The position numbers and the translations under genes were made by a program. Source: Symbiodinium natans (Eukaryota > Sar > Dinophyceae > Suessiales > Symbiodiniaceae). Taken from it: 64,000 bases of DNA. Of this stretch, positions 671-63,379 are shown piece after piece; the stretch's first letter is position 1; every line of letters begins with the position of its first letter. Where the stretch lies: assembly GCA_905221605.1 (NCBI GenBank), contig CAJNDS010000419.1, positions 1 to 64,000 of the forward strand. Direction: 5' to 3'. Under the pieces are notes generated by a model that was given only the letters and a program-made list of their open reading frames with translations, ran no database searches and was not told the DNA's origin.

Positions 671-778
671 TAGAATAAACCCTAAACCCTAAACCCGAAA
701 CCCGAAACCCGAAACCGGAAACCCGAAACCCTAAACCCAAATCCGGGAACCCTAAACCCTAAACCGTAAACCCTAAAC
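671..778 (-). repeat. Degenerate CCCTAAA tract inside an intron
   Basis: CCCTAAA units with CCCGAAA and CCGTAAA variants on the plus strand. On the minus strand it reads TTTAGGG and starts exactly at the donor of the exon at 779-866. Confidence 0.7.
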
Positions 779-866
779 AGCCCACTCCTTGGAGACGACA
801 GAGCCGACGTCCTTCTTCCCAAAGTCGCGAAGCGCGTCCAGGGCTTTGCGCTTGCTGCCCTCAGAC
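779..866 (-). CDS. Internal exon, basic/charged, unknown protein
   Basis: Open minus frame of 88 nt encoding SEGSKRKALDALRDFGKKDV and a short tail ending SKEWA. It sits between AG (CCAAG) and a donor that is itself the telomere-type repeat (GCT then GTTTAGGG). No family recognised. Confidence 0.55.
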
Positions 867-1034
867 CTTGGGGACCCAACTGAGCCCGAAAAGGGTTAAG
901 GGTTAAGGGTTAAGGGTTAAGGGTTAAGGGTTCCTGGACCCCAATAGGGATTACTAATATACCCAAAATAGGGAATCTTATACCCCAAACAGGGAAGTAG
1001 GTGTGATAGTGGCATAGGGTATGCGATCAACAAA

Positions 1035-2824: not shown

Positions 2825-3015
2825 CTGCTACTTCCGAAAGGCCTCTGCATTCGCCGGGCAGCTTGCTGCCGTCACAACCGTACCAAATCAGCTCCTGCAA
2901 CTCCACTCGATCATGGTTGCTACTACGAAGACGGCACCGGTGCAGACGTCCTGATTCTACATGCCCTAAACCCTAAACCCTAAACTCCCTAAGCCCTAAA
3001 CCCTAAACCCGAAAC

Positions 3016-3113
3016 CCATGGAGCCAGGCCAAGCTGCCGTGACACACTTCTCCAGAGGCATCTCCCAGCTGTAGAAGGTGTAGCCCTGCCACTTGTTCCA
3101 GTTGTCCTTCATC
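3016..3113 (-). CDS. Internal exon, Trp/aromatic-rich, unknown
   Basis: 98 nt after CTCAG; encodes MKDNWNKWQGYTFYSWEMPL then EKCVTAAWPGSM. The donor lies in the repeat: ATGG then GTTTCGGGTTTAGGG. A clear example of an exon running directly into telomere-like sequence. Confidence 0.6.
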
Positions 3114-3194
3114 CTGAGATGAATTGGCCAGTGGTTTAGGGTTTAGGGTTACGTAGGGATTTTGAGTGTTTAGGGTTTCGGGGAGAAAAGACAC

Positions 3195-6534: not shown

Positions 6535-6815
6535 CGAACCAAAAAGCCAAAATACCAAAACCAAAAAACCAAAAACACCAAAACCAAAAAAAACAAAAAA
6601 AACAAAACCAAAAAAACAAAAAATACCAAAAAAACCAATTTTCCGGGACTCTCAGGAAATCCCTATGAGGCTTCTCCAAGAGTCCCGGAAAATTGGTTTT
6701 TTTGGTGTTTTTGGTTTTTTTGGTTTTGGTTTTTTGTTTTTTTTGGTTTTGTTTTTTTTTTGTTTTTTTGGTTTTGGTTTTTTGGTTTTTTTGGTTTTGG
6801 TATTTTTGGTTTTTC
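6535..6815. repeat. Foldback element with perfect 27-bp stem and A/C-rich arms
   Basis: 6626-6652 (ends TTTTCCGGGACTCT) is perfectly complementary to 6679-6705, with a 26-nt loop. Outside the stem the left arm is runs of A with CC and the right arm runs of T with GG, so the complementarity extends imperfectly for about 90-110 nt each side. Confidence 0.75.
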
Positions 6816-13095: not shown

Positions 13096-13483
13096 CCCAG
13101 GATTTTTGGAGACCCTTGAAGAGCGCCCCGTGCACATCCCCCGCAGGCCCCGCCTGGGCATAAGCCCGAAACCCGAGAAGGAATCATGTTGGGTGGGCTC
13201 ATGCCAGAGTAAGAGCCAACACGCCGCAGTGGCTGTTGGTAGCTTGGTCAACAACATGTCGTCGCGAAATATGCCACCCACCCCAACGCACACCCTTGGT
13301 GTGTGCTTGGGGGCATTTCCACATGGTCCCTGGCACTGTGTTGGCGAGACGCCCCTATACCTTCGTCCACGAACTTACGGGCTATACAAAAGCATTCAGA
13401 GATGTTGAGCTTCAGAGGACTGAGCCCTAAACCCCAACCCCTAAACCCTATAAGCCCGAAACCCTGAACCCTAAACCCTAAAC

Positions 13484-13581
13484 CCGCTGAAGAAGGCCGG
13501 GGCGCCCTCCGAAGCGCTCGGGCGTGCTGCGTGAGGTCACGGAGTCGGTGGCGGAAGAGGCCCTGGCCAGGGGCAGCTTCC
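13484..13581 (-). CDS. Internal exon ending in telomere-type donor
   Basis: 98 nt after TTGAG; encodes KLPLARASSATDSVTSRSTP then ERFGGRPGLLQR; donor is CGG/GTTTAGGG. Confidence 0.55.
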
Positions 13582-13966
13582 CTCAATTCGGGCCTCTTGG
13601 GGTTCGGGGTTTCAGTTTAGGGCTTAAGGCTTATAAGGTTTAGGGTTTAGGGTTTAAGGCTTATAAGGTTGGGGATTGGGGGGAGCGAACATAGTCCGGT
13701 GTAGTCTAGAGAACTGAGCCCTGTTGGGAGGTCAGTGGCATTCGAAAACAACCCTAAATTCTGAAACCGAAACCTTAAACCTGGCTCTGTCCGCACGTCT
13801 GGCCGTTTATTTCGTTATTCTTTACGAGGTTTTCTAAACGGGTTCATGATGGCGACGAAGTGGTTGTGTGGGTGCGCGTGCTATAAATTTCGCGGAACTC
13901 ACTGTCATGGTTTCGGTAGCGAGAGCTACACGGATGTCAGAGGCAGAGGCATCCTATTGAACATAC

Positions 13967-15002: not shown

Positions 15003-15272
15003 TCAGCACGAAACCAGAATCTCCTCGAGCCCCCAACAGAAACCTCCCTGACCACCCCTAAACCCTAAACCCTAAACCCTAAACCCTAAACCCTAAACCC
15101 TAAACCCTAAACCCTAAACCCAAAACCCTAAACCCTAAACTGAGTGAGCCCGGAGCCGTCGAGCAGGGCGAACGCACCGAAGCCGGCAGGCGAGGTAGCT
15201 CCGGAGCCAGAAGCCCTCCGGCGGGCGACGTCCCGCAGGCAGCTGCGGGCTGCGCGGTGGACCGACAGGTCG
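15003..15272 (-). CDS. Two exons flanking an all-telomeric intron
   Basis: Exon 15141-15272 after TTCTCAG encodes DLSVHRAARSCLRDVARRRA, then SGSGATSPAGFGAFALLDGS, and ends ACTCA/GTTTAGGG. The intron 15058-15140 (83 bp) consists of TTTAGGG units with one TTTTGGG and ends TTTAG. In the matching phase the next exon reads GGQGGFCWGLEEILVSC and stops at TGA (15003). An alternative phase-0 reading of the second exon (GWSGRFLLGARGDSGF..., to 14989, donor GAG/GTGGGA) is also open. Confidence 0.55.
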
Positions 15273-16616: not shown

Positions 16617-16949
16617 CTGAAGGCTGATCCTAAACTCTAAGAAGACACAGGGTATGAAGACAGATTTTACAAAACAAAAACCCTAGCGATAGTAAACCTG
16701 GGAGAACTAGGGCGCCAGGCTCTAGGGGTTTCAAGGCAAATGTAGGTTCATAGGGTGTGTGTGTGTGTAGATTTATGGGGTTGAGTATAAGGCCCCTGAA
16801 CCTTGCAGAGGTTTTGGTTTTAGGCTGCGAACACCCTCAGCACATAAGCCCATCAAGCCTCGACCTCTGTACATGGGACTCTGTTTTCCTGCAACTTGAT
16901 GAGATATGCTAAGCCCTAAACCCTAAACCCTAAACCCTAAACCCTAGAC

Positions 16950-17260: not shown

Positions 17261-17765
17261 CTTCATCCGCATGGACAAAAGCCCACAGACAAACAATAAC
17301 CGAAACGTCCCCAAAACCTGTCACCACTACTATACCAACCCAGGCAGGCTCAGCTGTCTTGGGGTGACGAAGGGGAAGCTTCAACCCAAGCGCGAACCTC
17401 CGAATCGGAGGCCATGGGGTCACAGCTTGGGCGCTGCGAATCGTGGACTCCAGTTTTAGGAAGTTGCAGAGGGTAAGAGATGTGAATCTTCGGCGTTGGG
17501 GGTTCGGACTTCAGGGCTTCGAGGCTTTAGGGTTTGGGGGTTTTAGGGGCTGAGGGTTTGGGAAGTGGAAAGCTGGCCAATCATAAACGAGCAAGGGCTA
17601 GTATGTTGGCTTCCGATCCGCGTCAAAAAAAGTAGACAAGTGCGGGCAGGCTGCCACACCTAGTCAGAATCATGATACGGCCCAAACCCTAAACCCTAAA
17701 CCCTAAACCCTAAACCCTAAACAATAAACCCTAAACCCTAAACCCCCCACTTTAAACCCCAGAAC

Positions 17766-17853
17766 CCCTGAAGCTCAGTGGTCCGGCGGAGAGCGCCGCC
17801 GCCGTGGTCTCCCTCTCGGAGCTCAACCGCTCCCAGTCGATCGCCTCAGCGTT
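17766..17853 (-). CDS. Internal exon, paralogous to the exon at 33891-34010
   Basis: 88 nt between CCCCAG and AGGG/GTTCTGG. Encodes NAEAIDWERLSSERETTAAA then LSAGPLSF. The AEAIDWE core recurs as AEEAIDWE at 33891-34010, and DNA similarity is visible (CCCAGTCGAT on the plus strand of both). Confidence 0.5.
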
Positions 17854-17958
17854 CTGGGGTTTGCGTGGTTTTGGGCGCCAGGGTTTAGGGTTTAGGGTTT
17901 AAGGTTTAAGGGTTAAGGGTTTAGGGTTTAGGGTTTAGGAGGGTTTGGTGTTTGCGGT

Positions 17959-18085
17959 TTAGGGTTTAGGGAGAGGTCGTAGGGTTAAAAGGGCCTGGGG
18001 ATTCTTAGCCAGGAGAAACACTTCCACTTCTCCCCTGATGAGGGTACTTGGGAGTCTTGATGACCTGCCCATGGCCAAAGCTACT
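17959..18085 (-). CDS. Possible terminal exon using a TAA from the repeat
   Basis: After ACTGAG the frame reads VALAMGRSSRLPSTLIRGEV then EVFLLAKNPQALLTLRP and stops at TAA inside CCCTAAACCC. The stop is therefore supplied by telomere-type sequence. Confidence 0.4.
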
Positions 18086-24003: not shown

Positions 24004-24796
24004 CTAGATGCTGGTTCGCATAGCAAAGGAGCTGCCTTCTGGGGCGGGGATGGTTTCACGTGCAAGCGGAAAGCACAAGACCTTGGAGCCTGCTTGCTTG
24101 TTCAACAGGCAAGGCTTAGCAAAGCTCTCTGCAAAGTTTGTAGCCTGGAGACAGGGCTCCTCACACAGAAGCGTATTGATGGACCATGCTTGCTCGCGGT
24201 GTTGTCTAGGGTCCCTAAACCCTAAACCCTAAACCCTAAGCCCTTTCTAGGGATAGGGGGCTTACCTTTGGGCTCAGAGAATCTTGAGGAATCTTGAAAC
24301 ATCCCACGCCCCGCTCTGCCCGCCTTGACGCGGCTGCCTGGGGCCAGTTCCCCCACGACCTCCGCACAGAATACCCTAAACCCTAAACCCTAAACCCTAA
24401 ACCCTAAACCCTAAACCCTAAACCCGAATGCAGATTTGGGGAGTGCACTGGAGGTCTTCCGAAAAGGCTGTGGTCCGGTTCCTCAAAGGCAGAAACCGAA
24501 ACGCAACTTGTGAGGCTGCTTCCTGGCCGAACAGCGTCACGCAGCCTGCGGTTCGTGACTTTAGGGGACCCCCTAAACCCTAAACCCTAAACCCTAAACC
24601 CTACACCCTACACCCTAAACCCTAAACCCTAAACCCTAAACCCTAAACCCTAAACCCTAAACCCTAAACCCTAAACCCTAAACCCCATTCAGAGTCTACT
24701 CGGCCGCCCCCAGAGGCCTCACTGCGCAGGGACTCACCGCTGCGGACGATGGCGCCACGCCCGCTGATGACCTCAAACTCACCTCCGATGTGCGGG
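24004..24796 (-). CDS. Multi-exon gene with an intron made only of telomere repeats
   Basis: Exons: A 24684-24796 (EFEVISGRGAIVRSGESLRS), B 24424-24572 (TAGCVTLFGQEAASQVAFRF, LPLRNRTTAFSEDLQCTPQI), C 24266-24359 (VVGELAPGSRVKAGRAGRGM, FQDSSRFSEPK), D 24004-24205. Intron A-B (24573-24683, 111 bp) is GTTTAGG repeats from donor to TTTAG and the phases agree (1 nt + 2 nt). Intron B-C (24360-24423) starts GTTTAGGG and ends GCGGAG. Exon C ends AAAG/GTAAGC. Exon D is open in two frames: 67 codons (QHREQAWSINTLLCEEPCLQ..., stop TAG at 24004) or a phase-matching shorter one after TTTAG (TLDNTASKHGPSIRFCVRSP...). Exon A resembles a GGIxVRxGxxLxS repeat that I recall from dinoflagellate proteins; that assignment is weak. 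Confidence 0.6.
24573..24683 (-). repeat. Telomere-repeat intron, 111 bp
   Basis: Minus-strand GTTTAGG units with two GTGTAGG variants, bounded by exons A and B above. GT donor and AG acceptor are both parts of the repeat unit. Confidence 0.7.
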
Positions 24797-25055
24797 CTCG
24801 GGGTTTATAGGGTTTAGGGTTTAGGGTTTAGGGGACAGTTAGGGTTTAGGGTTTTAGAGGGTTTATCGGGTTTGGAGGGTTTATGGGGGTTTAGAGGGTT
24901 TACAAGGGCTTTGAGGGTTTATAAGGGTTTACAGGGATTAGGGTTTGTAGGGTTTGTAGGGCTTAGAGGGTTTAGGGTTTAAAGGGGTTACAGGGTTTAC
25001 AGTGTTTATAGGGTTTTATAGGGTCTATAGGGTTTATAGGGTTTAGGGCTTCTAG
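24797..25055 (+). repeat. Degenerate TTTAGGG tract, plus orientation
   Basis: TTTAGGG mixed with TTTATAGGG, TTTACAGGG and TTTAGAGGG variants over about 260 bp. This is opposite in orientation to most arrays in the window. Confidence 0.8.
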
Positions 25056-28431: not shown

Positions 28432-30138
28432 TCATCGCGAATGCACAGCCATCGAAAAAGGAACTCCCAAGGACAGCCAAAAAAACAGGGTGCTGGGATC
28501 GAGGACGAACACCTCGTAGGTCTGGATCGCGCGCTCGCCGCGCTTGGGATACACCCGGACAACCACGTGACCCCCGGAGGATCGGAGGTTTCCTAAGAGA
28601 CCCTGTGCCTGGAGATCGGCCGACCTCTCTGAAAACAGGTCGGTGGCGAAGATCTCCCGCCCGATGCCCGTGCCTTCTGCGCCCAGGATCCTCATGCTTT
28701 GGCTTGGTGGCTGGTCAGAACACCAAACCTGCAGAATCGCCACCTTTGGGTCCACCAGCTGGGCGAAAAGCTCGGTCACCCCATGTCCGTGGTGATTCAG
28801 GGTGGCTACATCCACTGGCCCCGTGGCTTGTGCCGTGGGGTTTACCGAGTCCATCGCTTGGTCGCTTGTGTCCCCGCCCTCATAGTAGCGGAAGCTGTCA
28901 TACTCGATGACGATTGCTGTGCTCAGCGCATTCTCATCCCAATCTCCCTCGCCCTTCAAGACTGTGCCGGGTATGGTTCTTTTGCCTTTCAGGTTGCCTG
29001 TCCTGTCGACCTCGGCAACCTCGTTATTCGCCTTGATGTTCTTGATCGCGAATCCTGCAGTCGAGCCTTTCTTCACCATGCGCAGCTGGTCAGAGCTGGC
29101 AACCTCAAAGCGTTCGACGCTGGTGCCCCTCACCTGCAGCGACTCCATGAAGCCCATGTAAAAGGCACCGTCGGGCGTGTTGAAGAGACTGACGGGAAAG
29201 CTGTAGTCTGGATACGCCTGGGTCTGCTACGGACCCTTGCAAGAGAAGATCCCCCTCATTTGTTGTTTGTGATCTTATAGCTGTATAGAGCTAACTCGAA
29301 CCCAACACTTGGGAACAGAGAGTCCAGCCTTTGAACTGCTAGCAGTACTGAGTTCACGAGTTCTGAAACATAAGAGTCGCAAAGTGTCCTTGCGTACCCC
29401 GAAGACAACCCTGAGATCTGAACCGGCGATCAGGACGCTCTGTCAATCAGCTTGGAGAAATGGAAAGCTTCCGCGACCTCTGAGAGACCCGTGAGTGGAA
29501 GTGCATCGTGCCCATGTAGGCTCATGGTGCCCCTCTTGACAGCCGCCTTCGGGTTTTCAAGTGAGGGCTCGCTCTTGGGAGTTATAGGGCTTTATACAGG
29601 CTACTCCGGGTTTGGAGTTTATGTAGGGCTTTAGGTCCTTCTTCGGTTTTGGGAATCAAGGTTCAGGCAAAAAGGCCTCAATGTCACCAATGTGGTCCTT
29701 GCGGAAATGCGTCACCAGCACAAAATCCAAGGTAGGTCTGGCTTCCAAGTCGCGCGGCCAAAACTTCTTCAGATACTCGACGATCCATCCAGCCGTGGTT
29801 CTGGTGGAGTTGGGGAAGGGGCGCCTCGGTTCCTTCTCCTTGTGTCTTGCTCTCCAAGCCTCCGTCTCCACGTCGCCGGCGTCGATGAGCAAGGTGGAGC
29901 CATCCGGCATCACGACAAAGGTGCTCTGGCATGCCCCCACCTGCAGATGATGGATGTCAAGAAGTCCATGGCTCCAGGGAGGAAGGTTATCATCTCGATA
30001 CTGGTTCCCTCTGATCTCCATCATCGCCGCGGAGATTCGTGAAAAGGATGCCCACAAGGCAGCGGCTGAAAGCAGCGCAGCGGCTACCAGTGTGAGAGCC
30101 CTCTTCTGTGAAGAGGACACTTTGGTGTTTTCTTTCAT
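28432..30138 (-). CDS. Membrane-anchored metallo-beta-lactamase-fold hydrolase (ComEC/Rec2-type domain)
   Basis: Exon 1 29677-30138 starts at ATG with a cytosolic stub and a transmembrane segment (ALTLVAAALLSAAALWASF), then the strand pattern LDIHHLQVGACQSTFVVMPD and GSTLLIDAGD, and the loop VLVTHFRKDHIGD. Exon 2 28432-29226 (after CCGTAG or TAGCAG) carries ALSTAIVIEYDSFRYYEGGD and VDVATLNHHGHGVTELFAQL, matching the second half of ComEC-like MBL domains (NxxS..., GD, HHG). The metal motif H-x-H-x-D-H is H-F-R-K-D-H here, so one expected ligand is Arg. The intron between the exons appears to be GC-AG (GAG/GCC) and keeps phase 0; no GT is available nearby. About 418 residues. Lumenal or external location is inferred from the N-terminal anchor. 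A TTAG lies 13 bp before the ATG (possible trans-splice acceptor). The last 15-20 residues may be read-through past a donor. Confidence 0.7.
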
Positions 30139-30422
30139 GCAGTTAGTGCTCTAATTCCCGGGTCCCTTCTTTCCGGCTTCGGCTTAAGAGTCTGCAGGAG
30201 GACTGAGAGAGGCCGTAGGCTGTGCATGGCCGGTCTCGCGTCAATCGTCCCAGCAGGTTGGCGCACAGGCAGACAGCGCTCCATGGACATTGGCCAAGAC
30301 TTGGGAGTTAAACCCTATAAACCCTATAAACCCTATAAAAAAAAACAAACCCTACAAACCCTACTATAAAGTCTATAAACCCTATAAACCCTCTAAACCC
30401 TATACCCTCTAAAACTGCTGCT

Positions 30423-30852: not shown

Positions 30853-31588
30853 CTGGGTCCCCGCTATGCATCCTTATCCTACGTGTTTTGGGACTCCTTT
30901 GGGGCCGTCTCTGTGCGTGTTTGCCGGTGTGGGGCTGCTAGGTTGTGAGTTCTTAAAACTCAGCAATTCTTCGCCAGGTCACCTGGCCCGGTCTCCTACT
31001 ACCACAGCCACAAGGAATCCGGCAATGCCCAACCCCAGAGAATCCCACCAAGATCGCAGCCCGCGCCTAGATAATCCTACACGCCATCCCGCAAAACAAC
31101 TATGCCTCGGAGTCCCACTCCCCAAAGTTTGCTGGAGAGCCTAGCCAAAGAGACTCCTCCAGAGCAGGTATCCCCGCAGCATACCCCTCCCTGGAGTTTG
31201 TCAATTCCGAAGAGTAGCCGGAGGGCACACAAAATTCCCCTGCAGCGCCCACCCGAGAGAATCCTGCAGGAAATCCCGCAGAGTACTTTTCGGAGTCTTG
31301 CAGAGAATCCCACAAACATCCCAAGGCCCAACATCGTATCCCTGGCGTGCCAATTAGTGCCGGGTATGGATGCTCGAAGCAAGTATGCTTGCAGGGCACT
31401 ACTACATTCCCTTAAAACGCTCCCCCAAAAACCCCAAACTGAACCCGACAGGCACTCCCATTATCCCCTACACCAAAACGCACTCCCAAAACCCTGAGAC
31501 CATACCAAAAGAGGCAGCGCATCCCTAAACCCTAAACACCAAGAGGTTCAGACCCCGAAAACCCTAAACCCCTAGACCCTAAACCTCA

Positions 31589-31705
31589 TCAAGTCGAGCT
31601 TGGCTGACTTCGGGACCCTGCAAGCAAGGGACTCTCCGTGTCATCCGCTGCTGTCTTAGCAGCATCCAGTTCTTCCTCCTCAAAGTAGGTGGATTGGGTT
31701 CTTGT
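31589..31705 (-). CDS. Terminal exon, acidic C-terminus
   Basis: After CCCGAG: TRTQSTYFEEEELDAAKTAA, then DDTESPLLAGSRSQPSST and TGA. 38 codons, phase 0. Confidence 0.55.
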   Translation of the reverse strand, partial: TRTQSTYFEEEELDAAKTAADDTESPLLAGSRSQPSST

Positions 31706-31789
31706 CTCGGGTTTACGTGTTAAGGTTTAGGTTTTAGGTTTCACGGTTTAGGGTTTGGGTGCTTCAGGGCTTTGGATTCAGGTTCGGGA

Positions 31790-31863: not shown

Positions 31864-31998
31864 CTAGTCGCCCGCCCCAAACCCTAAAGTGCCTGAACCC
31901 ATCACTAAACCCTGCATGGGCCCTATAAACCCTAAACCCTGAACCCTGAACCCTGAACCCTAAACCCTACCCTAAACCCTGAACCCTAGACCCGGAAC

Positions 31999-32088
31999 CC
32001 TGCTCGCCAATGGCTCCGTGGCCTTGGGCTGGGCGGCCTCCGCAGCCTCTTCGGCTTCGACCTCGGCCTGGATCTTCTTCCTGGGCTT
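31999..32088 (-). CDS. 30-codon exon, Lys/Glu/Ala coiled coil
   Basis: Between CCCAAG and AGG/GTTCCGGGTCTAGGG. Encodes KPRKKIQAEVEAEEAAEAAQ then PKATEPLASR. Phase 0 both ends. Confidence 0.55.
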
Positions 32089-32154
32089 CTTGGGGTTTAG
32101 GGCTAAGGGGTTTGGGGGTTAGGGTTTAGGGCTCTTAGGGTTTGGGGTTTTAGG

Positions 32155-32300
32155 GTTCAGGCCTCTTGGGGTTTAGGGTTTAGGGTTTAGGGTTTAGGGT
32201 TTAGGGTTTAGGGTTTAGGGTTTAGGGTTTAGGGTTTAGGGATCTCTTAGGGTTTGGGGTTTAAGGTTTAGGGCTCTGTGGGTTTAGGGTTTAGGGCGGT
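32155..32300 (+). repeat. TTTAGGG array, plus orientation
   Basis: About ten uninterrupted TTTAGGG units at 32170-32240 within a longer degenerate tract. Confidence 0.9.
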
Positions 32301-33676: not shown

Positions 33677-33890
33677 CTCTTTTTACAGCTCTCGTAATCT
33701 GTAAACCTTTTGAACTGAAATCCCTTCACACAACCCTATAACCCCAAAGGAACCCTGAGCCACTGCCAGAACCCTAACCGGGATTCAAGTGTTGTTGCGG
33801 TCTGCAAATCCCTAGACCCTAGACCCTGAACCCCCAACCCTAAACCCCAAACCCTAAGCCCTAAACCCTGCACCCTAACCCCAAACAAAC

Positions 33891-34010
33891 TTGCTGCCTC
33901 TTGAGAGCTCCTTCCCAGTCGATGGCTTCTTCGGCGCTCTCGGGGAGCCGAACAGACAGCAAGCTCTGCTGGAGCGTTGCGAAGCCTGTCGTCGGGTTGA
34001 ACCGGTTGAA
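33891..34010 (-). CDS. 40-codon exon, paralogous to 17766-17853
   Basis: After CCAGAG: FNRFNPTTGFATLQQSLLSV, RLPESAEEAIDWEGALKRQQ; donor CAA/GTTTGTTTGGGG. Phase 0. Confidence 0.6.
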
Positions 34011-34248
34011 CTCTGGGGTGGGTTTTCGGGTTTAGGTTTAGGGTTTAGTCTTATTTTTCTTTTGGGGGGGGGGCAGGGAGGCTGGGCTTTCTGGGGTTGA
34101 GGGATTACAGGGTCGATAGGTGCTTTAGGGTTTACGGGGTCTATAGGGTCTATCAGGTTTATCTCAATTTTTTGGGGGGTGGGGGGGGGGGGGGTCGGTT
34201 TCGGGATAGGGCTTAGGGTTTTGGGCCTCCAAAAAAACAAAAAAGCGC

Positions 34249-40313: not shown

Positions 40314-40558
40314 CTGCGATCCAGGGCATCTGGGGACTCTCTGGCGCTGGGCCTCCAGGGGTTGAAAAAAAGGCTGGGAAAGGCTCCTTCGTTCACTATG
40401 GGAAGCCCCACCTTAAACCCTAAACCCCCAAACATCCCAGAATTGACTGGGCTAACAAGGTGCGAAGGCCATTGTTTGGAAGAACGGGGCGTAGGGCGGC
40501 TTGCAAGTGCCCACATATTAAACTCTAAACCCTAAACCCCCCAAACCCAAACCCAAAC

Positions 40559-40652
40559 CCTCCTGCAAGGCCTCCACTGCCTTCACCAGGGCTTGGGGCA
40601 GCTCGGGCTGCTCTTCGGCAAGCTGCGCCACAACGCCCTGCGGAACGGACTC
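40559..40652 (-). CDS. 31-codon exon with repeat-type donor
   Basis: Between CTATAG and GAGG/GTTTGGGTTTGGG. Encodes ESVPQGVVAQLAEEQPELPQ then ALVKAVEALQE. Amphipathic helices. Confidence 0.6.
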
Positions 40653-40780
40653 CTATAGGATCCCTTTTTGGGCTTAGGGTTTAGGGCTTACGTAGGGTTG
40701 AGGGTTTAGGGTTTAGAGGGTAGAGGCTTTAGGGTTTAGGGTTTATAGGGGTAAGGGTTTAGGGTCTAGGGGTTAGGCGC

Positions 40781-46701: not shown

Positions 46702-46867
46702 CTGGCTGGCACCCGTGCCTGCCAGGCATGGCAGGCGTTTTAGGGGAGGCAGGGGTTCAGAAACCCCTAAACCCTAAAGCCCTAAACCTTCAAAACCCTA
46801 AACCCTAAACCCTAAACCTTAAACCCTAAACCCTGAACCCTAAACCCCTGAAATGCCCCATGCCCCT

Positions 46868-46956
46868 TCAACCCTCTTGATCCTGAATGCCCGGATCCCT
46901 GGTTGTGGCCTGAGCTCCGGGCTGAAGAGGCCTCTTGCGGAGAAGGCTCAGGATGG
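46868..46956 (-). CDS. Terminal exon
   Basis: After CCTAAG: ILSLLRKRPLQPGAQATTRD then PGIQDQEG and TGA. Confidence 0.45.
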
Positions 46957-46971
46957 CTTAGGATGGCTTAG

Positions 46972-47120
46972 GGTTTAGGGTTTAGGGTTTAGGGTTTAGG
47001 GTTTGGGGTTTGGGGTTTGGGGTTTGGGGTCTGGGGTTTGGGGTTTGGGGTTTGGGGTTTGGGGTTTGGGGTTTGGGGTTTGGGGTTTGGGGCTTGGGGT
47101 TTGGGGTTTGGGGTTTGGGA
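46972..47120 (+). repeat. TTTAGGG array drifting into TTTGGGG
   Basis: Starts as TTTAGGG (46972-47000) and continues as about 17 TTTGGGG units, showing homogenised variant spread. Confidence 0.9.
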
Positions 47121-47121
47121 G

Positions 47122-47208
47122 TTTCCGAAAATAGGGGTTCCGCATTGGGGTCCTTATTATAAGGGAGTTCTACCATTTGGTGGGTCGTTTGGGGTCCCCT
47201 ATTTTCGT
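47122..47208. mobile_element. MITE copy 2
   Basis: Ends TTTCCGAAAATAGGGG and GTCCCCTATTTTCG, core GGGGTCCTTATTAT and CTACCATTTGGTGGG, matching 18353-18436. It sits at the edge of the TTTGGGG array. Confidence 0.6.
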
Positions 47209-48002: not shown

Positions 48003-48066
48003 AAGACCCTAAACCCGAACCCTAAACCCTAAACCCTAAACCCTAAACCCTAAACCCTAAACCCTA
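48003..48066 (+). repeat. CCCTAAA array at the 5' edge of the LINE
   Basis: About eight CCCTAAA units ending immediately before the element. Confidence 0.95.
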
Positions 48067-48098
48067 GGCGTATCGGCTTTCAGCCTTCGCTGCAAGAC

Positions 48099-49772
48099 AT
48101 GGTGGGTTTCGCTTTCAGTTTGCACAGTCAATTTTCTGCCAGGCAGGGACCACTTCGCATGATGGTTTCAGCCGCGGCCTTTTTTTCGGGGTTTTGCCTT
48201 GTAGCCTCAAGGGCTACTACGCCACCCCAGTTTCGAGCCATGACGGATGGCACAGGGGCCGCAGAGAGCCTCATGGAGGCCAGGCGCGTTTACAGCGAGC
48301 AGGCCACCTTGGTACAGGGCCCAGCGTACGCCGCCTCACAGCAGTTGTTCTTCGAGCAGCGCAGGGTTGCCAAGCGCGGCCCCCCGACACCGGCCTTTTC
48401 CTCAACGGGGCTGGCCACCCCAACCGGAGACACCTTTGGCCCAACGGCTCCAACCGCCTCAGGGAGTACTCCGCCGGCAAAGCAAGACACTGGTCTTTTC
48501 CAGCCCATGCACTACCAGCAGGAGACGGCCTTTGTAGCCACAGCCCACTCCGCCGGTGTCAACGCAAACAACCCGACAGATATGGCCCTATGGATGAAGG
48601 AAACGATTTCCACCAGGGCGCAAGTCCTGGACACCATCCGGCATTACCACACCGCCGTGATCCGTCCTGAACTCTACAATTTGATCAACCAAGTTGAGGC
48701 AGCATTGGTCTCGCTGGACGATAGACTACTACGCCAATCCAAGGAGTTAGCTTGGATGGCTTCAGAGAACAGAGCCCTCCAAAAGCAAAGTGCTGCACTC
48801 ATGGTCATTTTGACCGGCTGGGATACGAGCATGTCGCCCTCCGAACGGCTCTTCATGGTCAATTGGATGCTCGAGCAGATCACCCACGTCCAGGCCTTCT
48901 TGCAGCAGAGGGGGTGGGCCAACTTCGACGGCGAGTACAAGTACCTCAATGTCCTCTCTGCAGACCCGTCTACTCCGCCGGCAGGGGCACAGAAGTGGAG
49001 CTCGGTAACGCTACTCAGCTTCAAATCCTGGGACCTGAGAAAGGCGTTCATGGAGGCATATGGTGGCACTCAGGGTACCCCACTGTACAAGGATGCGCGC
49101 ACTCCAGTACCCCGCCACCATATCAGGGCTACACCTTCGAGCCCCCAATTCCAACGAAAGTTGGAAATTCCAATCCGAGTACTCCTCCAGGCCCTCAACC
49201 TCAAGGAGGAGACCGAGCCCCGCCAGGTGGTGATCTTGTGGAAGACGCTCACGGTGATGTCGCCCCAAATGGCGCGCGGCTTTGATGAGCAAGCCACCGC
49301 CTGCGCTCGCCTCCACTACTACGCCGAGGGGGAGCAGTTCAAAGGCATCCTCGAGATCACAAAGGTCATCTCCGACTGGCTTGCAACCACTCCGCCCGAT
49401 GAGTTGATGACAGAGGAGGACACGATTTGGTCCTACAGCTGGAACAAGATCGTCTTCGGGGTCCAGCAGGAGATGGATGCAGCAGAGCGCGACCACTTCG
49501 CCAACGCCAAGGCTGCAGCAAAGGGCACGGGCAAGGGGATGCTTGCTGGAAAGGGGTCCCGTCACTGGACGGCCCCGATGATCTACTCCGCCAGCTCGAT
49601 GCCGTACCCGATCGACCTCGAGATCAGACTGGTGTCCCAAGTGGCCTACGTTTGGGATGAGTATTGTGATAAGTTTGGCGAAAACAGCCGCAAATGCGGC
49701 GACTACCGCCAGGCTACTTTTTCCGGAGCCCCGGTTGCGGCTACTCCGCTTCTCACGGCCCCCACGGCCTGA
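48099..49772 (+). CDS. LINE ORF1, gag-like
   Basis: 557 codons. No RNA-recognition motif or CCHC knuckle is obvious. The N-terminal 50 residues are hydrophobic and start choice is open (ATG at 48099 or at 48241, MTDGTGAAESLMEARRVYSE). The middle is helical with a coiled-coil feel (LINQVEAALVSLDDRLLRQS). Near the end YCDKFGENSRKCGDYRQ resembles the F(Y/H)xxFGxxAxxC tail seen in some retrotransposon gag proteins. Identified as ORF1 by position upstream of the enzymatic frames. Confidence 0.55.
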   Translation: MVGFAFSLHSQFSARQGPLRMMVSAAAFFSGFCLVASRATTPPQFRAMTDGTGAAESLMEARRVYSEQATLVQGPAYAASQQLFFEQRRVAKRGPPTPAFSSTGLATPTGDTFGPTAPTASGSTPPAKQDTGLFQPMHYQQETAFVATAHSAGVNANNPTDMALWMKETISTRAQVLDTIRHYHTAVIRPELYNLINQVEAALVSLDDRLLRQSKELAWMASENRALQKQSAALMVILTGWDTSMSPSERLFMVNWMLEQITHVQAFLQQRGWANFDGEYKYLNVLSADPSTPPAGAQKWSSVTLLSFKSWDLRKAFMEAYGGTQGTPLYKDARTPVPRHHIRATPSSPQFQRKLEIPIRVLLQALNLKEETEPRQVVILWKTLTVMSPQMARGFDEQATACARLHYYAEGEQFKGILEITKVISDWLATTPPDELMTEEDTIWSYSWNKIVFGVQQEMDAAERDHFANAKAAAKGTGKGMLAGKGSRHWTAPMIYSASSMPYPIDLEIRLVSQVAYVWDEYCDKFGENSRKCGDYRQATFSGAPVAATPLLTAPTA

Positions 49773-49907
49773 AGGGTTCCGGCTCGAATTCGCGATCTAG
49801 CCAGGGAGGTACGTACCTCTTTTTATCTCCAGGCTACTGCGCCGCTCCCCCACAATTTCAAGGTACTCCTCGAAGGCAACTTCACATTTGAAACTTTCTT
49901 AAAGGAA

Positions 49908-50792
49908 TTGCTTCGAGATGTTTTAAGTCAGGGGTTGAGCAGGCCTTCCACCCACAACCACCCCGCCCCCCATATGATAAGACTTTACCCTTTCAGAGTT
50001 TCCAGGTTTTTGGGTGCCCCGGGTGTTGCACGATCGCGGTCGCACGCTGAGTTTGTAGAGGTCGCCAAACAAACCCTCACAGCTAAAGACCTGCAGTGGG
50101 ATATGAGGGTTGTTCGTAGAAGCCGAAAGAGACCCAATAAACTCCCAACTAATCCTCACCTTCAGGCTTCATGCACCTACATTATCTTCGCCTTCTTATG
50201 CGTCTTTTACTACACCTCAACCACTAGATCCTCTTTCCCCATTGTCCTTATGGATTCTCTGGTAGTTCATTCTACAATATGTTCACTTATCAAGTATGGG
50301 ATAAGCCAGTGGGAGCTTCTGCAACAGCTACTCCGCAACAAATTACAACACATCAAAAACGGGAACACAACAACATTACAGCTAGATCTTCTAATTCCCC
50401 ACAAGTACACTGAGTACCCTCAACCCACTATGGAGTACAGCTTCATTCATCAAGCCAAACTTAGCCGTGATTTTCTCCTTTCCCAACGACCCATTAGCCC
50501 CCCAAAGCTTCCCGAAAATTCCCCTTTCCCTCAACTCACTCCCAGACCCAAAACAAGAACGGGTAGGCGAGTCTCTTTTCGTTTCACAGATGGTCGTAAG
50601 GTAAACTACACCCGAAGACCACTCCGCCATTTTTCGGCCAGCCGGCCCTTCCGCCCACCAACGAATTCACAGAAGGATAGGCCAACACCCTCCACGAGGC
50701 ACGCCGGGACCCGGGCAACCGGGAGACGAAGAGTGTATCACCCCTCCCCCCCCTTCTTCAGTCCACCCTCTAGGTTTGGGTGCCCGCTCTAG
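49908..50792 (+). CDS. LINE second frame, basic, unknown function
   Basis: 294 codons in the same frame register as ORF1 and the RT frame, overlapping the endonuclease frame by 17 nt. The C-terminal half is Pro/Arg-rich (RRVSFRFTDGRKVNYTRRPL). May be part of ORF1 or an N-terminal extension of ORF2 joined by a frameshift. Confidence 0.4.
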   Translation: MLRDVLSQGLSRPSTHNHPAPHMIRLYPFRVSRFLGAPGVARSRSHAEFVEVAKQTLTAKDLQWDMRVVRRSRKRPNKLPTNPHLQASCTYIIFAFLCVFYYTSTTRSSFPIVLMDSLVVHSTICSLIKYGISQWELLQQLLRNKLQHIKNGNTTTLQLDLLIPHKYTEYPQPTMEYSFIHQAKLSRDFLLSQRPISPPKLPENSPFPQLTPRPKTRTGRRVSFRFTDGRKVNYTRRPLRHFSASRPFRPPTNSQKDRPTPSTRHAGTRATGRRRVYHPSPPFFSPPSRFGCPL

Positions 50793-51660
50793 ACGCCTTC
50801 GACGGCAGCTTTTCCGCCGTTGGCGCAGGAGCGTGGGTGGGCCTATATTACCAGCAGCGTCGGGCAGCGCACTGGTAAAAGGGGGGGTGCCCTTGAAAGC
50901 AGTCAAAAGTAGGCGCCAAACCGGGGTACGAAATTCGTACCTTTTCAAAACCCTCATACTAAGGCCTGAACAAATCGGCAAGCAAAAAAAGGCTACTCCG
51001 CCAGCAGTAGCCCCACCACCCTTGCCGTATGGACAACCTTTTAAAATAGGTACACAAAACGTACAGGGAATGGCCGAAATACTAAAACACCAGTCAGTCC
51101 TCACTTTACTCCGTAGTAGAAAGCTTGACGTCCTTTTCCTCACCGAAACACGCAACACAACATACCACCAATTCACCTCAGAGGGGCACAGGTTCATTAG
51201 CAATGGCAGTAACAAGGACAAGTTCGCAGGAGTGACAGCAATCATTCCCCCCCAAACTCTACCACACCTCAAAGATGTAGTTCAGCATAGTGCGAGGATC
51301 CTTCAAATCACACTAGCAGCATCGGCCGGAGATGTTCACCTCATAGGAGTCTACTCCCCACACAATAAACGAGATGTTGAAACTAGCAAGCTCCCCTTCT
51401 GGGATAAGCTAGACTCGGTATTGCACAAAATTCCTCAACCAGAGCCGGTTTATATCATAGGGGACTTCAATGTGAGACTACAAGGTAGAAAACCAGATGA
51501 ACATCACATGTTGGGCCCCAATGTATATGGTAAGGGAAGACTCAGTATACCAACCACAGAAGGTAACAACAGAGAGCTCTATCTGAGATTCCTGAGTACC
51601 TCTGAAGCTAAGGATGTTCTAACCTACAAGCAGAGTACCTCACTTGCTACTCCGCCTTAG
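50776..51660 (+). CDS. LINE ORF2 N-terminal part: APE-type endonuclease
   Basis: 294 codons. Motifs in order: IGTQNVQG (residues 91-98, the N motif), LDVLFLTETR (catalytic Glu about 124), GVYSPHN (191-197), YIIGDFNVRL (Asp/Asn 230-232). It ends at TAG (51658-51660) before the final SDH motif, which is found at the start of the next frame (FVSDHYLL, residues 41-48). The endonuclease is therefore split over two frames. The stop directly follows an ACTCCGCC octamer. Confidence 0.8.
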   Translation: MGARSRRLRRQLFRRWRRSVGGPILPAASGSALVKGGVPLKAVKSRRQTGVRNSYLFKTLILRPEQIGKQKKATPPAVAPPPLPYGQPFKIGTQNVQGMAEILKHQSVLTLLRSRKLDVLFLTETRNTTYHQFTSEGHRFISNGSNKDKFAGVTAIIPPQTLPHLKDVVQHSARILQITLAASAGDVHLIGVYSPHNKRDVETSKLPFWDKLDSVLHKIPQPEPVYIIGDFNVRLQGRKPDEHHMLGPNVYGKGRLSIPTTEGNNRELYLRFLSTSEAKDVLTYKQSTSLATPP

Positions 51661-56010: not shown

Positions 56011-56264
56011 GCATTCCCCAATCATTTAGCGCCTACCAATCAGTCACATAGTAGGGAGCACCCGTGCTTCAACGACACCCCTCATAAGCGCTTCAACCTC
56101 CACCCTTAACCCCGAAAAAAACCCTAAAGCGCCTTAAGCCCTAAACCCCGCCCAAAGTCCCCAAAGCTCCTCCTAAACCCTTACCCCTAACCCCTAAAAC
56201 CCTAAAACCCTAAAACCCTAAACCCCAAACCCTAAACCCTAAACCCTGGAAGCCAAACTTCAAG

Positions 56265-56348
56265 GACCGTAGGCGGCCGAAACGCCTGGGTGGGCGTCCT
56301 GCCGAGACGGGCGAGGAGGCCTTCAGCCGGTCTCGCGGAGGGTCAAGG
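56265..56348 (+). CDS. Plus-strand 28-codon exon with repeat-type donor
   Basis: TTCAAG to AGG/GTTTGGGGTTTAGGG; encodes DRRRPKRLGGRPAETGEEAF then SRSRGGSR. Here the gene strand and the downstream TTTAGGG orientation are both plus, fitting the general pattern. Confidence 0.55.
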
Positions 56349-56560
56349 GTTTGGGGTTTAGGGTCTGGGGTTTGGGGCTTAGGGTTTCGAGTTTAGTGTT
56401 TGGGGTTTAGGGTTTGGGGTTTAGGGTCTGGGGTTTGGGGCTTCGGGTTTCGAGTTTAGGGTTTGGGGTTTAGGGTTTCGGGTTCAGGGTTTGGAGTTTA
56501 GGGTTTGATTGTTTAGGGTTTAAGGTCGTGGTTTAAGATTTGGGGTTTAGATAGGTTTAG
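56349..56560 (+). repeat. Mixed TTTGGGG/TTTAGGG tract
   Basis: Alternating TTTGGGG and TTTAGGG with TTTCGGG variants over about 200 bp. Confidence 0.85.
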
Positions 56561-56689
56561 GGTTACGCTTATCTGAGGCATTTAGGGTTTGGAGGGTTTA
56601 GGACTCCAAGGCTTTCAATTAGGATTCATATGGGTTTAACGGGCTCAGCGTTTATGTTGGGACTTTCTGTTCTGAGGTTTGTGGTCGGT

Positions 56690-57291: not shown

Positions 57292-57397
57292 ACCCTGACC
57301 CCGATACCCTGATACCCTGATACCCTGTACTACCCGAACACCCTACTACCCTAGAATAACCTGAGACCCTAACACCCTAATTCGTCGGTGCACGAAG

Positions 57398-57486
57398 CCG
57401 GATGCTGGCCAGTCCTCAGCGCACTGAGCGTGCCGGCAGCCCTGTGAGCCAAGTTCAAAGGGCCGAGATTACAAGATGTGCGAGAG
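57398..57486 (+). CDS. Plus-strand internal exon
   Basis: 89 nt between ACGAAG and AGAG/GTAGCT. Encodes RMLASPQRTERAGSPVSQVQ then RAEITRCAR. Confidence 0.45.
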
Positions 57487-57544
57487 GTAGCTTACTTAGG
57501 GGTTTGGGGTTTGGGGTTTGGGGTTTGGGGTTTAGGGTCTAGGG

Positions 57545-57778: not shown

Positions 57779-57941
57779 TGGAATAACTCTACCGTAGATG
57801 TACTTGAAAATGCCATATCATCTTCAGAGGCACCGATACTGATTTTGGGATGCAGCCTTCGAACTGATCCCCAAGCCACCCAGAATAATGACTCGCACCG
57901 ACGACCCAGAAAGGACTTTCGACCCCTGGCCAAGAAAGCAA

Positions 57942-57997
57942 CCCCTAAACCCTAAACCCTAAACCCTAAACCCTAAACCCTAAACCCTAAACCCTAT
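57942..57997 (+). repeat. CCCTAAA array
   Basis: Eight units, sense-strand intron for the minus exon at 58007-58091. Confidence 0.95.
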
Positions 57998-58006
57998 TCT
58001 CCGAAC

Positions 58007-58091
58007 CTGGCGGCGGCTTGACCGATGGCAGCCATGGCGAAAGCGACGTCGCGTCAGAAGGGCTTGGAGCTTTGGGTGCTGGCTGCTCCGG
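58007..58091 (-). CDS. 28-codon exon, Pro/Ser/Ala-rich
   Basis: GAAAG to CCAG/GTTCGGAGAATAGGGTTTAGG; encodes PEQPAPKAPSPSDATSLSPW then LPSVKPPP. A plus frame is open too. Confidence 0.45.
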
Positions 58092-58107
58092 CTTTCCAAG
58101 GTTCCTG

Positions 58108-58270
58108 GGGTGTAGGGTTTAGGGTTTAGGGTTTTAGGGTTTTAGGGTTTTAGGGTTTTAGGGTTTTAGGGTTTAGGGTTTTAGGGTTTTAGGGTCTTAG
58201 GGTTTTAGGGCTTTTGGGTTTTTGGGTTTTTGGGTTTTTGGGTTTTTGGGTTTAGGGTTTTAGGGTAGGG
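58108..58270 (+). repeat. TTTTAGGG/TTTTTGGG variant array
   Basis: TTTAGGG, then about eight TTTTAGGG, then five TTTTTGGG units: local spread of length variants. Confidence 0.9.
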
Positions 58271-58426: not shown

Positions 58427-58826
58427 CTTCAATCCATGAAAGGTTTTGGGATTTGCGTGTTCTTAGGGCCTGAAAAACCGAGGGTCATACTAGGAAGTGC
58501 GGGAGCGATCTGCTTTCTGTTCAGTCATACACGCAAACTGTAAGAAAAACTGTGAGCCAGGCACTCAATTTTCCCAAAATTCGGTTGCTGCAGCTTTGGC
58601 GAAGGGACCGGGTGCGAACACCGTGACGTGCAATGCGCATGTTGCGCTAAGTGCCCCACGAAACTCATACTGTGGGGGGGGGGGGGGGGGGGGGTTGCAC
58701 CTTAACAGTGGTGTAGGGATTCAAGGTGCCTTGAGGAGAGATCGACTTTTTCCTTCAATGGAGCTGAAGTGGGAGATTCGGGCAAAAAAAAACCCAAACC
58801 CTAAACCCTAAACCCTTAAACCGTGG

Positions 58827-59086
58827 ATGTTGGAGCTCGGGCTTCTAGCTCGGCAAAGTGCTCGCAGCAGGCCCCCGGCAGTGCGTTATTCCAAGACCGT
58901 CGCAGTCCCACACGTGCAACGCCCACAACAATTGATGAAGGCTTTGGGGATTCCAGGGAAGAAAGTGGTTTAGGGTTTAGGGTTTTGGGTTTAGGGTTTT
59001 GGGTTTAGGGTTTAGGGCTGAAGTACACCAGTGCCACAACATCCAAGGCGGCCATGACTTTCTTGGAGCCTTGGGTTCTGGGATGA
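58827..59086 (+). CDS. Two-exon plus-strand gene with telomere-repeat intron (strand debated)
   Basis: Exon 1 58827-58967 is open from an ATG (MLELGLLARQSARSRPPAVR, YSKTVAVPHVQRPQQLMKAL) and in a second frame (APGSALFQDRRSPTRATPTT). The intron 58968-59015 is 48 bp of TTTAGGG/TTTTGGG only. Exon 2 reads KYTSATTSKAAMTFLEPWVL and stops at TGA; the second frame joins it in phase across the TTTAG acceptor, while the ATG frame would need the AG nine bp further on (CTGAAG). On the minus strand 58822-58941 is also open (PSSIVVGVARVGLRRSWNNA) with AG and GTTTAAGGG edges, so the strand is not settled. Confidence 0.45.
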
Positions 59087-61115: not shown

Positions 61116-61437
61116 TAGGAGGAGACAAACTCAAAGCTACAACGAACACGATTCAGATATGAAGGTGAGTAGGGCGTGTCGGTTTCAGGGTCTAATCTCG
61201 GGAGTTGAGGTTTTTTGTGGTCTGCTTCCAGCGTCCTATCAGCCAAGAGGACGTAATGGCATAAACAGTTGGGTGGAAACGTCTCTCACAAGCAAGTTGC
61301 ACTTCGACAAACCTGACGGAGCACGACTGGTGGGGTTGTTGCGGCTTGCTTCACCTGTTTGGCCAACTCACCTCCAACCTCAAAGTTCACCCCGATGTCA
61401 TACACCCCTAAGCCCCAAACGTGAACAACCCTTCTAA
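61116..61437 (+). CDS. Plus-strand exon(s)
   Basis: 61116-61160 (CCTAG to ATGAAG/GTGAGTAGG, strong donor; e.g. EETNSKLQRTRFRYE). Downstream a frame of about 80 codons is open (SWVETSLTSKLHFDKPDGAR, LVGLLRLASPVWPTHLQPQS), or a short terminal exon RPISQEDVMA after TTCCAG. The combination is unresolved. Confidence 0.35.
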
Positions 61438-61539
61438 GGAATTCTGAAGCGCCAGCCATGGCCCACGCTCAACTCTCACATTTTTAGCCACTAGTCCATG
61501 CTTGAGGTTCAGGGTTTAGGGTTTCTGCTTTATTAGGGT

Positions 61540-62138: not shown

Positions 62139-63095
62139 TCAGAGGGACGCATCAGAGGGTACTGACCCTTGTGCCCCCGATGCAGGTCCCCGCCACTTTT
62201 GCTGCAGCTGGAGGCACCCCTGATGAAAGGCCCGGTTCTCTGAGAGCATGAAATAGGAGAAGGCTCCACGAGGGAAGTCTGTGTCGCGACATGAACGAAG
62301 TGGGTTCAACATCCCAGCCCCAAGATGCAGCAGTCCAGCGAACACGGTTGGAAAAAACAGCACACATAAGACCTCCACCACTGCCGTCACGTAAGTCTGA
62401 AGGCGAAGCGCCCGAGCAATTACCACAGCTGATGTAATCGCTTGTAGGATATTGTGCATCCCAACAACGATGCCCAAGCCATGCATGTAGCGCAGCGGAA
62501 CCTGAGTATCGACATACGCCAGCGTTGCCCCAATGGCTCCACGAGCCTGACAACACAGACGTTGTAGATTTGGCATGGTCGTGACTGGGAACGGCAAGCG
62601 GCTCCCCCCTAACTCTGCTGGACCATACGCCAAATGCGCGAGATAGGACGTGGCCCATGCCCACACCACCTGGCCCTTGGAGGGCAAAGGTGCCAAAACT
62701 TCGCACTCGTCGTCTTCCAGAAGCCCGCTCTGTTTCAGATCGTTCAAATCTGTCTCACCCAGGGCTTGCTTGTACATCAGCTCATGTGACAAGACCGCCC
62801 ATCGAAGCAATCGCTCGCGCACCTCGGTGTCCTCCGGTGACTCACTTGGGAAGTAGCTAGTTAGAAGTAGTGTGAGGTCATTGATCGCACCCCAAAGGCT
62901 CCCAATACAGTCGTTGCGCATGGCCCACCATCGGGTCACACAGGTCGCCATGAAAAAGCCCAGGAGGAACACCTGGCTCACAGCTTGCTCCTTGAAAAAT
63001 GCTGCAACTGCCCTAGTGAACATGCTGAAATTCACATGTCCGTAAGAAAGACAGGGCAACATCCAAGAAATGCCAGCCGAACGGCCGGTGGCCGA
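62139..63095 (-). CDS. Bestrophin-like anion channel, main exon
   Basis: Long exon (319 codons to TGA) after TTCTCAG; the frame is open to 63134. FLLGFFMATCVTRWWAMRND matches the bestrophin second helix motif (LGFxxxxxxxRWW); PLRYMHGLGIVVGMHNILQA, ALRLQTYVTAVVEVLCVLFF and TDFPRGAFSYFMLSENRAF follow the later helices and the post-helix NP...D-x-D segment. About 330 residues versus 350-450 in small protist bestrophins; the very N-terminus is probably on an upstream exon (perhaps 63190-63360, LRTWWYAVLSCAAALLFHHL). Likely a Cl-/HCO3- channel in an internal membrane. Unlike its neighbours it is one long uninterrupted exon. Confidence 0.75.
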   Translation of the reverse strand, partial: SATGRSAGISWMLPCLSYGHVNFSMFTRAVAAFFKEQAVSQVFLLGFFMATCVTRWWAMRNDCIGSLWGAINDLTLLLTSYFPSESPEDTEVRERLLRWAVLSHELMYKQALGETDLNDLKQSGLLEDDECEVLAPLPSKGQVVWAWATSYLAHLAYGPAELGGSRLPFPVTTMPNLQRLCCQARGAIGATLAYVDTQVPLRYMHGLGIVVGMHNILQAITSAVVIARALRLQTYVTAVVEVLCVLFFPTVFAGLLHLGAGMLNPLRSCRDTDFPRGAFSYFMLSENRAFHQGCLQLQQKWRGPASGAQGSVPSDASL

Positions 63096-63379
63096 CTGAG
63101 AATCAATCTTACTTCTACGTTCTGCCACCGGCACCCTTTCGGTTTAGTTAGTGTCAATTCAAGAGATTCTAAGCCGAAGAAAGGTAAGAGGGGCACTGCT
63201 GGGCATCCTAGAACTTGCTGTCCGGGAGCCGTCACCGTGCGCACCGAGTGCGTCATGTTGATCAGCAGGGTTGTGGTCGCCTCTGGCTGCGGCGTTCCGA
63301 GGTGATGAAAAAGCAGCGCAGCCGCACAACTGAGTACGGCGTACCACCATGTCCTCAGCTGTTGCGCAAGGTCGCATGA

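Follow-up and report, generated by a model that had tools for sequence, protein, structure and literature searches.

Arrays of telomere units at internal sites are familiar from mammals and plants, where these short interstitial sequences are often intronic. In man, 31% of them lie in introns, a share described as compatible with random insertion, and at 2q13 a head-to-head fusion of telomeres has left a G-rich array followed by a C-rich array (both from the excerpted text of PMC7215372). The introners of dinoflagellates and other eukaryotes are repetitive introns whose inverted-repeat ends are able to form a stem (excerpts of PMC9860276 and PMC7789003), and dinoflagellate introns have been described with GC, GA or GT donors and AG acceptors (excerpts of PMC11453091 and PMC8045281). 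TTTAGGG is the telomere repeat reported for dinoflagellates (excerpts of PMC11453091, PMC11508785 and PMC7023079). What the available excerpts of PMC7789003, PMC11453091, PMC9860276, PMC9087856, PMC8045281, PMC12730881, PMC11508785 and PMC7023079 say of TTTAGGG is confined to its role as chromosome-end repeat, or they do not mention it, and the excerpted accounts of dinoflagellate introns in PMC11453091 and PMC8045281 contain nothing on telomeric intron content. In a search of the literature we recognised no work on telomere-repeat introns in dinoflagellates; Roy et al. 2023, on dinoflagellate introners, may hold an earlier notice.

In the genome considered here, tandem telomere units likewise stand at internal positions, between exons within contigs, and many of them appear to be intronic. 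They differ from the short interstitial sequences of mammals and plants in their number, about 2.4 million matches to (TTTAGGG)3 in 759 Mb, and in that they point outward from exons and flank consecutive exons of one gene. The order of a G-rich array followed by a C-rich array is that of the 2q13 fusion, but here it is repeated intron by intron, and in most cases other sequence separates the two arrays. With introners these introns have in common that they are repetitive, with inverted-repeat ends that could form a stem, but the repeat is the telomere unit rather than a family sequence, and at the three sites tested the intron positions are common to array-free paralogs, which argues against gain by insertion. 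The probable donors, mostly GC with some GT or GA, and the AG acceptors are of the kind described for dinoflagellate introns.

The window, i.e., the whole stretch of 64,000 nucleotides that was analysed, is part of contig C419 in an assembly of 759,417,921 bases and 2,543 contigs, and has a GC content of 52.4%. The dinoflagellate spliced leader, with the query sequence taken from the excerpt of PMC8045281, has 104 + 101 = 205 exact copies in the genome (control 0), which mark the source as a dinoflagellate; six copies, mostly about 3.8 kb apart, lie together at C479:102078-129887. The (TTTAGGG)3 matches number 1,185,204 + 1,184,385, to be compared with 41 + 33 (74) for the reversed control, and the window alone contains 129 array runs (61 G-rich and 68 C-rich), when three shuffles of it gave 2, 1 and 0 G-rich runs. 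Telomere-type arrays are far commoner than by chance, in the window and in the genome. Scanning the window with Rfam models and for tRNA genes gave no match.

A first-pass annotation of the window had proposed that arrays of the repeat in sense orientation are themselves introns, with the donor at GTTTAGGG and the acceptor at TTTAG, and had drawn such an intron at 24573-24683. The array is indeed there: 24683..24573 on the minus strand consists of 111 bp of TTTAGGG-type units with TGGG before and GGGG after, within an array occupying 24568..24688, and read from 24700 this strand runs ...GAATGGG GTTTAGGG...TTTAG GGGGTCCCC.... Similar arrays are also present at the two places named as comparable, 15058-15140 on the minus strand (array 15053..15142) and 58968-59015 on the plus strand (array 58965..59021). 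The words were reported accurately as well, since GTTTAGGG stands at eight of the nine listed exon ends that were checked, the variant GTTTCGGG at the ninth, at 3016, and TTTAG directly before all six listed exon starts. Such words, however, mark array edges, and these lack a splice register: GTTTAGG is found at 13 of 133 array starts in the window and a stop after TTTAG at 6 of 134 ends, with edges blurred by degenerate units. On these counts a splice register at the array edges was rejected. The start phase in excess is GGGTTTA (41 of 133), and degenerate units could produce that excess. Furthermore, the TTTAGGG repeat has a stop in every frame of both strands, one per 21-bp cycle, and because each repeat frame contains stops it is partly forced that open reading frames end at arrays; 424 of the 2,835 stops that bound reading frames (15.0%) fall inside arrays, which cover 7.7% of the window. 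Array edges are therefore weak evidence for splicing.

The proposed restoration of the frame by one plus two nucleotides is trivial, because 111 is a multiple of 3. Coding potential was scored as codon usage against kinase exons. On this scale the flank on the exon A side of the array, a weakly coding-like core on the minus strand at 24689..24804 (PHIGGEFEVISGRGAIVRSGESLRSEA), reaches 7.1 (p ~0.12) and has no homologue, and proposed exon B at 24430..24567 (minus), which lies between two arrays of the same orientation, has a score of 4.5 (p ~0.42), i.e., background. The three-exon product finds only itself when searched against its own genome and no family in Pfam, and a Pfam scan of nine peptides from the window gave a single match, at E 0.22. 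What is confirmed at 24573-24683 is hence the array and not the intron as drawn, whose exon B is without coding signal and whose spliced product is without homologue. For the second proposed intron the upstream flank scores 7.1 and the downstream flank 3.5, both being only putative exons; for the third the flanks score 4.4 and 4.2, which is background, and its array forms an outward pair with the C-rich array at 58789-58822.

Now consider exons of conserved genes. A search with PF12774 for exons of the dynein AAA1 domain gave 37 matches, 18 of which, chosen as short scattered exons before their flanks were seen, were read together with the flanks. Nine of the 18 are flanked by arrays (L068-L073 and L078-L080, on contigs C1812, C1971, C204 and C96), and around the other nine (on C1852, C2477, C1986, C1899 and C1757) no telomere unit occurs as far as the flanks were read, 79-239 nt to either side. 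Array distances were tabulated for 17 of the 18 matches, the second match of L084 being likewise without an array. Distances were counted from exon edges set by eye. Going upstream, the nearest array is C-rich for eight of the nine flanked exons, at 6-74 nt, and going downstream it is G-rich for all nine, at 2-48 nt; the exception is L069, which has a G-rich array upstream. Since there are exons without arrays, splicing in general can do without them, and the dynein family perhaps holds two gene classes, with and without arrays. As to other members of the family, the first twelve dynein loci (L056-L067), a majority of which have long open exons, contain no perfect two-unit array; the six exons L068-L073, from the intron-rich dynein genes of C1812 and C1971, are all array-flanked.

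Kinases were sampled as twenty partial-hit loci with 58 exon matches of at least 6 bits, of which 57 were counted after one duplicate had been dropped. Within 120 nt downstream, 51 of these exons are without telomere sequence, one has a G-rich stretch and five have a C-rich one (three in L041 and one in L037, short and in introner-like sequence; that of L050 is a real array). The outward arrangement is therefore not a general rule. Array-flanked exons are a feature of some genes only, and among conserved exons they were found in one family, dynein, and in one kinase gene, L035, selected after its arrays had been noticed. Three exons of this gene, CDSWSAGVVM, FIILSGQYPFHGKTK and EELLHKIRGEI, lie between arrays: those upstream are C-rich and stand 31, 24 and 64 nt away, those downstream are G-rich and stand 44, 34 and 23 nt away. 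When joined with the preceding exon they give an uninterrupted kinase segment. Short kinase introns of another kind, with inverted-repeat ends, occur at L041:2499-2891, L043:3459-3583 and L035:2963-3049 (e.g., CCTTGGGGACCAAATGAACCC...GGGTTCATTTTGTCCCCAAGG) and look like several introner families. A tandem group of kinase genes, six of them with identical domain score, is found at C1019:16657-35637. A search of the genome for kinesins gave 98 matches, without readable exons.

When the nine dynein and the three kinase exons are taken together, the upstream array is C-rich in 11 of 12 cases and the downstream array G-rich in 12 of 12, so that 23 of 24 flanks face outward (one-sided binomial 1.5e-6; for dynein alone 17 of 18, 7e-5; flanks within one gene are not independent). 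From the edges of these exons it is 2-48 nt to the start of the array downstream and 6-74 nt back to the end of the array upstream, and the candidate splice sites are of the form GC/GT/GA...AG in the short non-repeat flanks; the donors are mostly GC and sometimes GT or GA, and are unsettled for L068, L069, L080 and the last L035 exon. The junctions of these genes would thus lie outside the arrays rather than at GTTTAGGG and TTTAG. Their introns would have the form GC/GT...(TTTAGGG)n...(CCCTAAA)n...AG, in which about 2-74 nt separate each splice site from its array. A site in the window that would fit this pattern is a candidate GC donor after base 24718, some 30 nt ahead of the array at 24568..24688; the core that contains it has as its outward partner the array at 24805..24857 (G-rich on plus, C-rich on minus), upstream of exon A.

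One such intron could be followed from end to end. C1971:273736-274931, of 1,196 bp, separates the dynein segments ATQ and ALHL, and the exons join in frame. It is 70% telomere-like (at most 2 mismatches per 14-mer), with sense repeats in the first quarter only (0.67) and antisense repeats in fractions 0.07, 0.64, 0.45 and 0.96 of successive quarters. Its junctions would be GCGACGCAG/GCGGGG and GCTCAG/GCCCTT. This intron and those of L035 have, on their sequence, the features of dinoflagellate-type spliceosomal introns: a GT, GC or GA donor, an AG acceptor and a restored frame. That telomere repeats serve as intron material is, in this sense, borne out by the genes themselves, since they make up much of what appear to be real introns in conserved genes; the anatomy is another than the one first proposed, inverted instead of same-sense, TTTAGGG at the 5' side and CCCTAAA at the 3' side of the sense strand, and with probable splice sites outside the arrays.

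In the reading that we prefer, telomere-repeat arrays would have colonised the introns of one class of genes, and would have done so in an inverted arrangement. The sense strand would carry (TTTAGGG)n a short way in from the 5' end of the intron and (CCCTAAA)n a short way in from its 3' end, such that exons of about 30-100 bp remain as islands between outward-facing arrays. The spliceosome would act at GC/GT/GA...AG sites of the ordinary dinoflagellate kind, located in the short unique flanks, and would remove the arrays as the body of the intron. The architecture itself we hold to be probable. The further step, in which the complementary arrays pair in the pre-mRNA, form a long stem, draw the splice sites close to one another and thereby maintain their own orientation, we regard, taken alone, as possible but rather doubtful. 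The predicted RNA fold of the C1971 intron has -439.6 kcal/mol, to be compared with -126.0 when its 5' part is reversed and with -227 to -249 for three base shuffles, and 202 of its 293 pairs link the G-rich 5' part to the rest. These are predicted values, and any inverted repeat would fold.

How old are the positions of these introns? At the ATQ/ALHL position, where C1971 has its telomeric intron, C1757 has a complete intron of 53 nt without repeats. At the LK/ position there are arrays in C1812 and C204, a complete 76-nt intron without them in C1852, and none in the 96 nt read in C1757. At the position after VA.Q there is an array in C96 and none in the 92 nt read in C1852. The three positions are common to array-free paralogs, and the arrays therefore entered pre-existing introns there. 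Insertion did not make a new intron position at any of these three dynein sites, as would be expected of an introner, and the idea that the arrays are portable introns finds no support in the same comparison.

The strongest of the other explanations gains from this result. It says that introns passively tolerate spreading arrays and that outward orientation is a by-product of avoiding false TTTAG/G acceptors near the 3' splice site, with no function in pairing. AG/G is the usual acceptor context of dinoflagellates, and the G-rich unit contains AG/G; arrays are also found in all four orientation pairs. Avoidance could explain why 3' ends are C-rich, but it leaves unexplained that 5' ends are G-rich in 12 of 12 cases, because C-rich units, being without GT, GC and GA, should be harmless there. 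We give this explanation a serious chance, somewhat smaller than the chance that it fails.

The arrangement of arrays can also be followed without reference to exons. Let an outward pair be a C-rich array, a non-repeat core and then a G-rich array. For arrays of at least 20 bp in the window, outward pairs are mostly separated by about 85-140 bp of non-repeat sequence, and 16 of them occur within 200 bp, when 7.9 are expected (none of 2,000 label shuffles reached this number); the excess vanishes if the threshold is lowered to 14 bp and the full 129 runs are taken in (18 against 16.1 expected, reached in 594 of 2,000 shuffles). At loci outside the window, pairs at 20-200 bp number 21 outward, 8 inward, and 11 and 13 same-way, some loci having been left out as duplicates, among them L027, which is not truly one. 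In 289 kb made up of the window and the gene loci, again with some loci left out as duplicates, there are 32 outward pairs at 60-160 bp, with 16.9 expected and none of 5,000 label shuffles as high. A profile of coding score in the flanks of 152 arrays, with some loci, L027 among them, likewise left out as duplicates, is higher to the left of the G-rich array in 102 of them, a result confounded by decayed repeats.

For the whole genome, pairs were matched by exact two-unit words, a procedure that counts one site several times and is blind to exons. At gaps of 0-30 bp there are 2,282 outward and 6,284 inward matches, at 40-70 bp 7,169 outward and 11,973 inward, and at 90-120 bp 134,342 outward and 47,188 inward. 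The outward bias sets in where the gap is as large as one exon plus the flanks that hold its splice sites. Among the first 100 matches listed, all on contig C1, there are 55 distinct outward and 40 distinct inward sites, with densities of 13.3 and 6.4 per 100 kb among the matches listed there. Scaled by the fractions listed, the totals would be, very roughly, 74,000 outward and 19,000 inward sites.

These counts bear on where the arrays came from. If a break within an intron gains TTTAGGG on both of its 3' ends and the ends are rejoined, the product has TTTAGGG at the left and CCCTAAA at the right, which is exactly the orientation observed. Telomerase has been argued to assist the repair of breaks in the case of mammalian interstitial telomeres (excerpt of PMC7215372) and has been invoked in a model for plant telo boxes (excerpt of PMC3022908), and the excess of inward over outward matches at 0-30 bp points in the same direction. 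Near-contact head-to-head matches are, however, rare beside the outward matches at 90-120 bp, the excess of GGGTTTA starts could stem from degenerate units, and telomerase healing as the whole explanation is possible but on balance unlikely. Direct head-to-head fusion as the main geometry was rejected on the pair counts at 0-30 bp. By analogy with the mammalian and plant cases in the excerpts of PMC7215372 and PMC3022908, telomerase-assisted repair inside introns is nonetheless a plausible source of arrays, and in the inverted architecture that we favour they would probably have arrived through such repair or through spread of the repeat within existing introns.

The sequence between outward arrays in the window is often coding-like. 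The highest scores belong to the pair at 674..933 (C-rich 674-780, core 781-890, G-rich 891-933; 9.5 on minus) and to those at 40518..40777 (core 40542-40665; 9.5 on minus), 31923..32298 (core 31994-32088; 8.8 on minus), 13420..13663 (core 13488-13614; 8.5 on plus), 2961..3183 (core 3019-3130; 8.0 on minus) and 33807..34052 (core 33886-34020; 7.9 on minus). Scores of 7.1, 6.9 and 5.5 are found for the pairs at 17680..17973 (core 17748-17877), 31555..31760 (core 31587-31719) and 57939..58193 (core 58000-58105), and there is no coding signal in those at 56172..56567 (core 56251-56338; 4.4) and 46761..47119 (core 46850-46962; 3.4). The mean over 13 of the 17 outward cores (1330-1527, 16641-16809, 57303-57498 and 61421-61504 having been left out of the scoring) is 7.0, to be compared with 4.6 for random 118-mers without telomere words, 7.8 for likely genes and 4.2 for seven cores between pairs of other orientation. 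When the 17 outward cores are compared with one another, as cores and not as intron interiors, no common sequence appears beyond degenerate repeat.

Could each intron instead be a mobile element, a transposon or introner with telomere-like terminal inverted repeats? Symbiodinium microadriaticum is described as having introners that carry terminal inverted repeats and 4-bp duplications (excerpt of PMC9860276), and in the present genome, too, elements with inverted repeats can be seen in the introns of kinase genes. Introners share a homologous sequence; here, in a comparison of the outward cores of the window, the telomere unit alone is seen in common, and the intron positions are old at the three dynein sites. 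We find the mobile element improbable. A variant, in which telomeric ends enclose a mobile core, was rejected: the cores of the window are unrelated, and those of L035 hold kinase exons.

Still less probable, to the point of being hard to sustain, is the model in which an array in sense orientation is by itself a whole, portable intron, with splicing at GTTTAGGG and TTTAG. The array edges in the window permit it, and L069 has a G-rich array upstream, but the edges are without a splice register, sites beyond the arrays suffice to join conserved exons, and exon B scores as background. That the arrays are an assembly artefact, or true chromosome ends misplaced within contigs, may be set aside as a negligible prospect, since they sit between consecutive exons of one protein domain and no point in its favour was found.

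If RNA confirms the inverted architecture, DNA of chromosome ends is intron building material in a large protist genome, oriented strongly outward at each exon, and the genome would allow a direct test of the ways in which splicing and the growth of introns are shaped by inverted repeats and by the spread of repeats. Annotation would then be affected, in that repeat masking would conceal intron ends. A bolder and rather unlikely extension is that the telomere repeat is a genome-wide intron device, in which paired TTTAGGG and CCCTAAA arrays define tens of thousands of mini-exons as unpaired islands; if true, it ties intron evolution to the spread of telomere repeats.

The window contains other features beside the arrays. 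A bestrophin-family gene lies at 62142-63143 on the minus strand (Pfam PF01062, E 2.8e-16), and two reading frames at 28435-30150 (minus) probably belong to a gene of the metallo-beta-lactamase fold, the second with a weak match to PF12706 below the cut-off and the first with none. Long reading frames at 48054-54626 (plus), which probably belong to a LINE-type retroelement, include a YADD motif in the frame at 51612-54626; a Pfam scan of the first frame alone gave no match. At 6537-6814 an A-rich AACCAAA repeat is followed by its complement TTGGTTT, the two forming a large imperfect inverted repeat, and at 46971-47124 there is an array of the variant unit TTTGGGG, which unlike TTTAGGG is open as a reading frame and encodes repeats of GFGVWGL.
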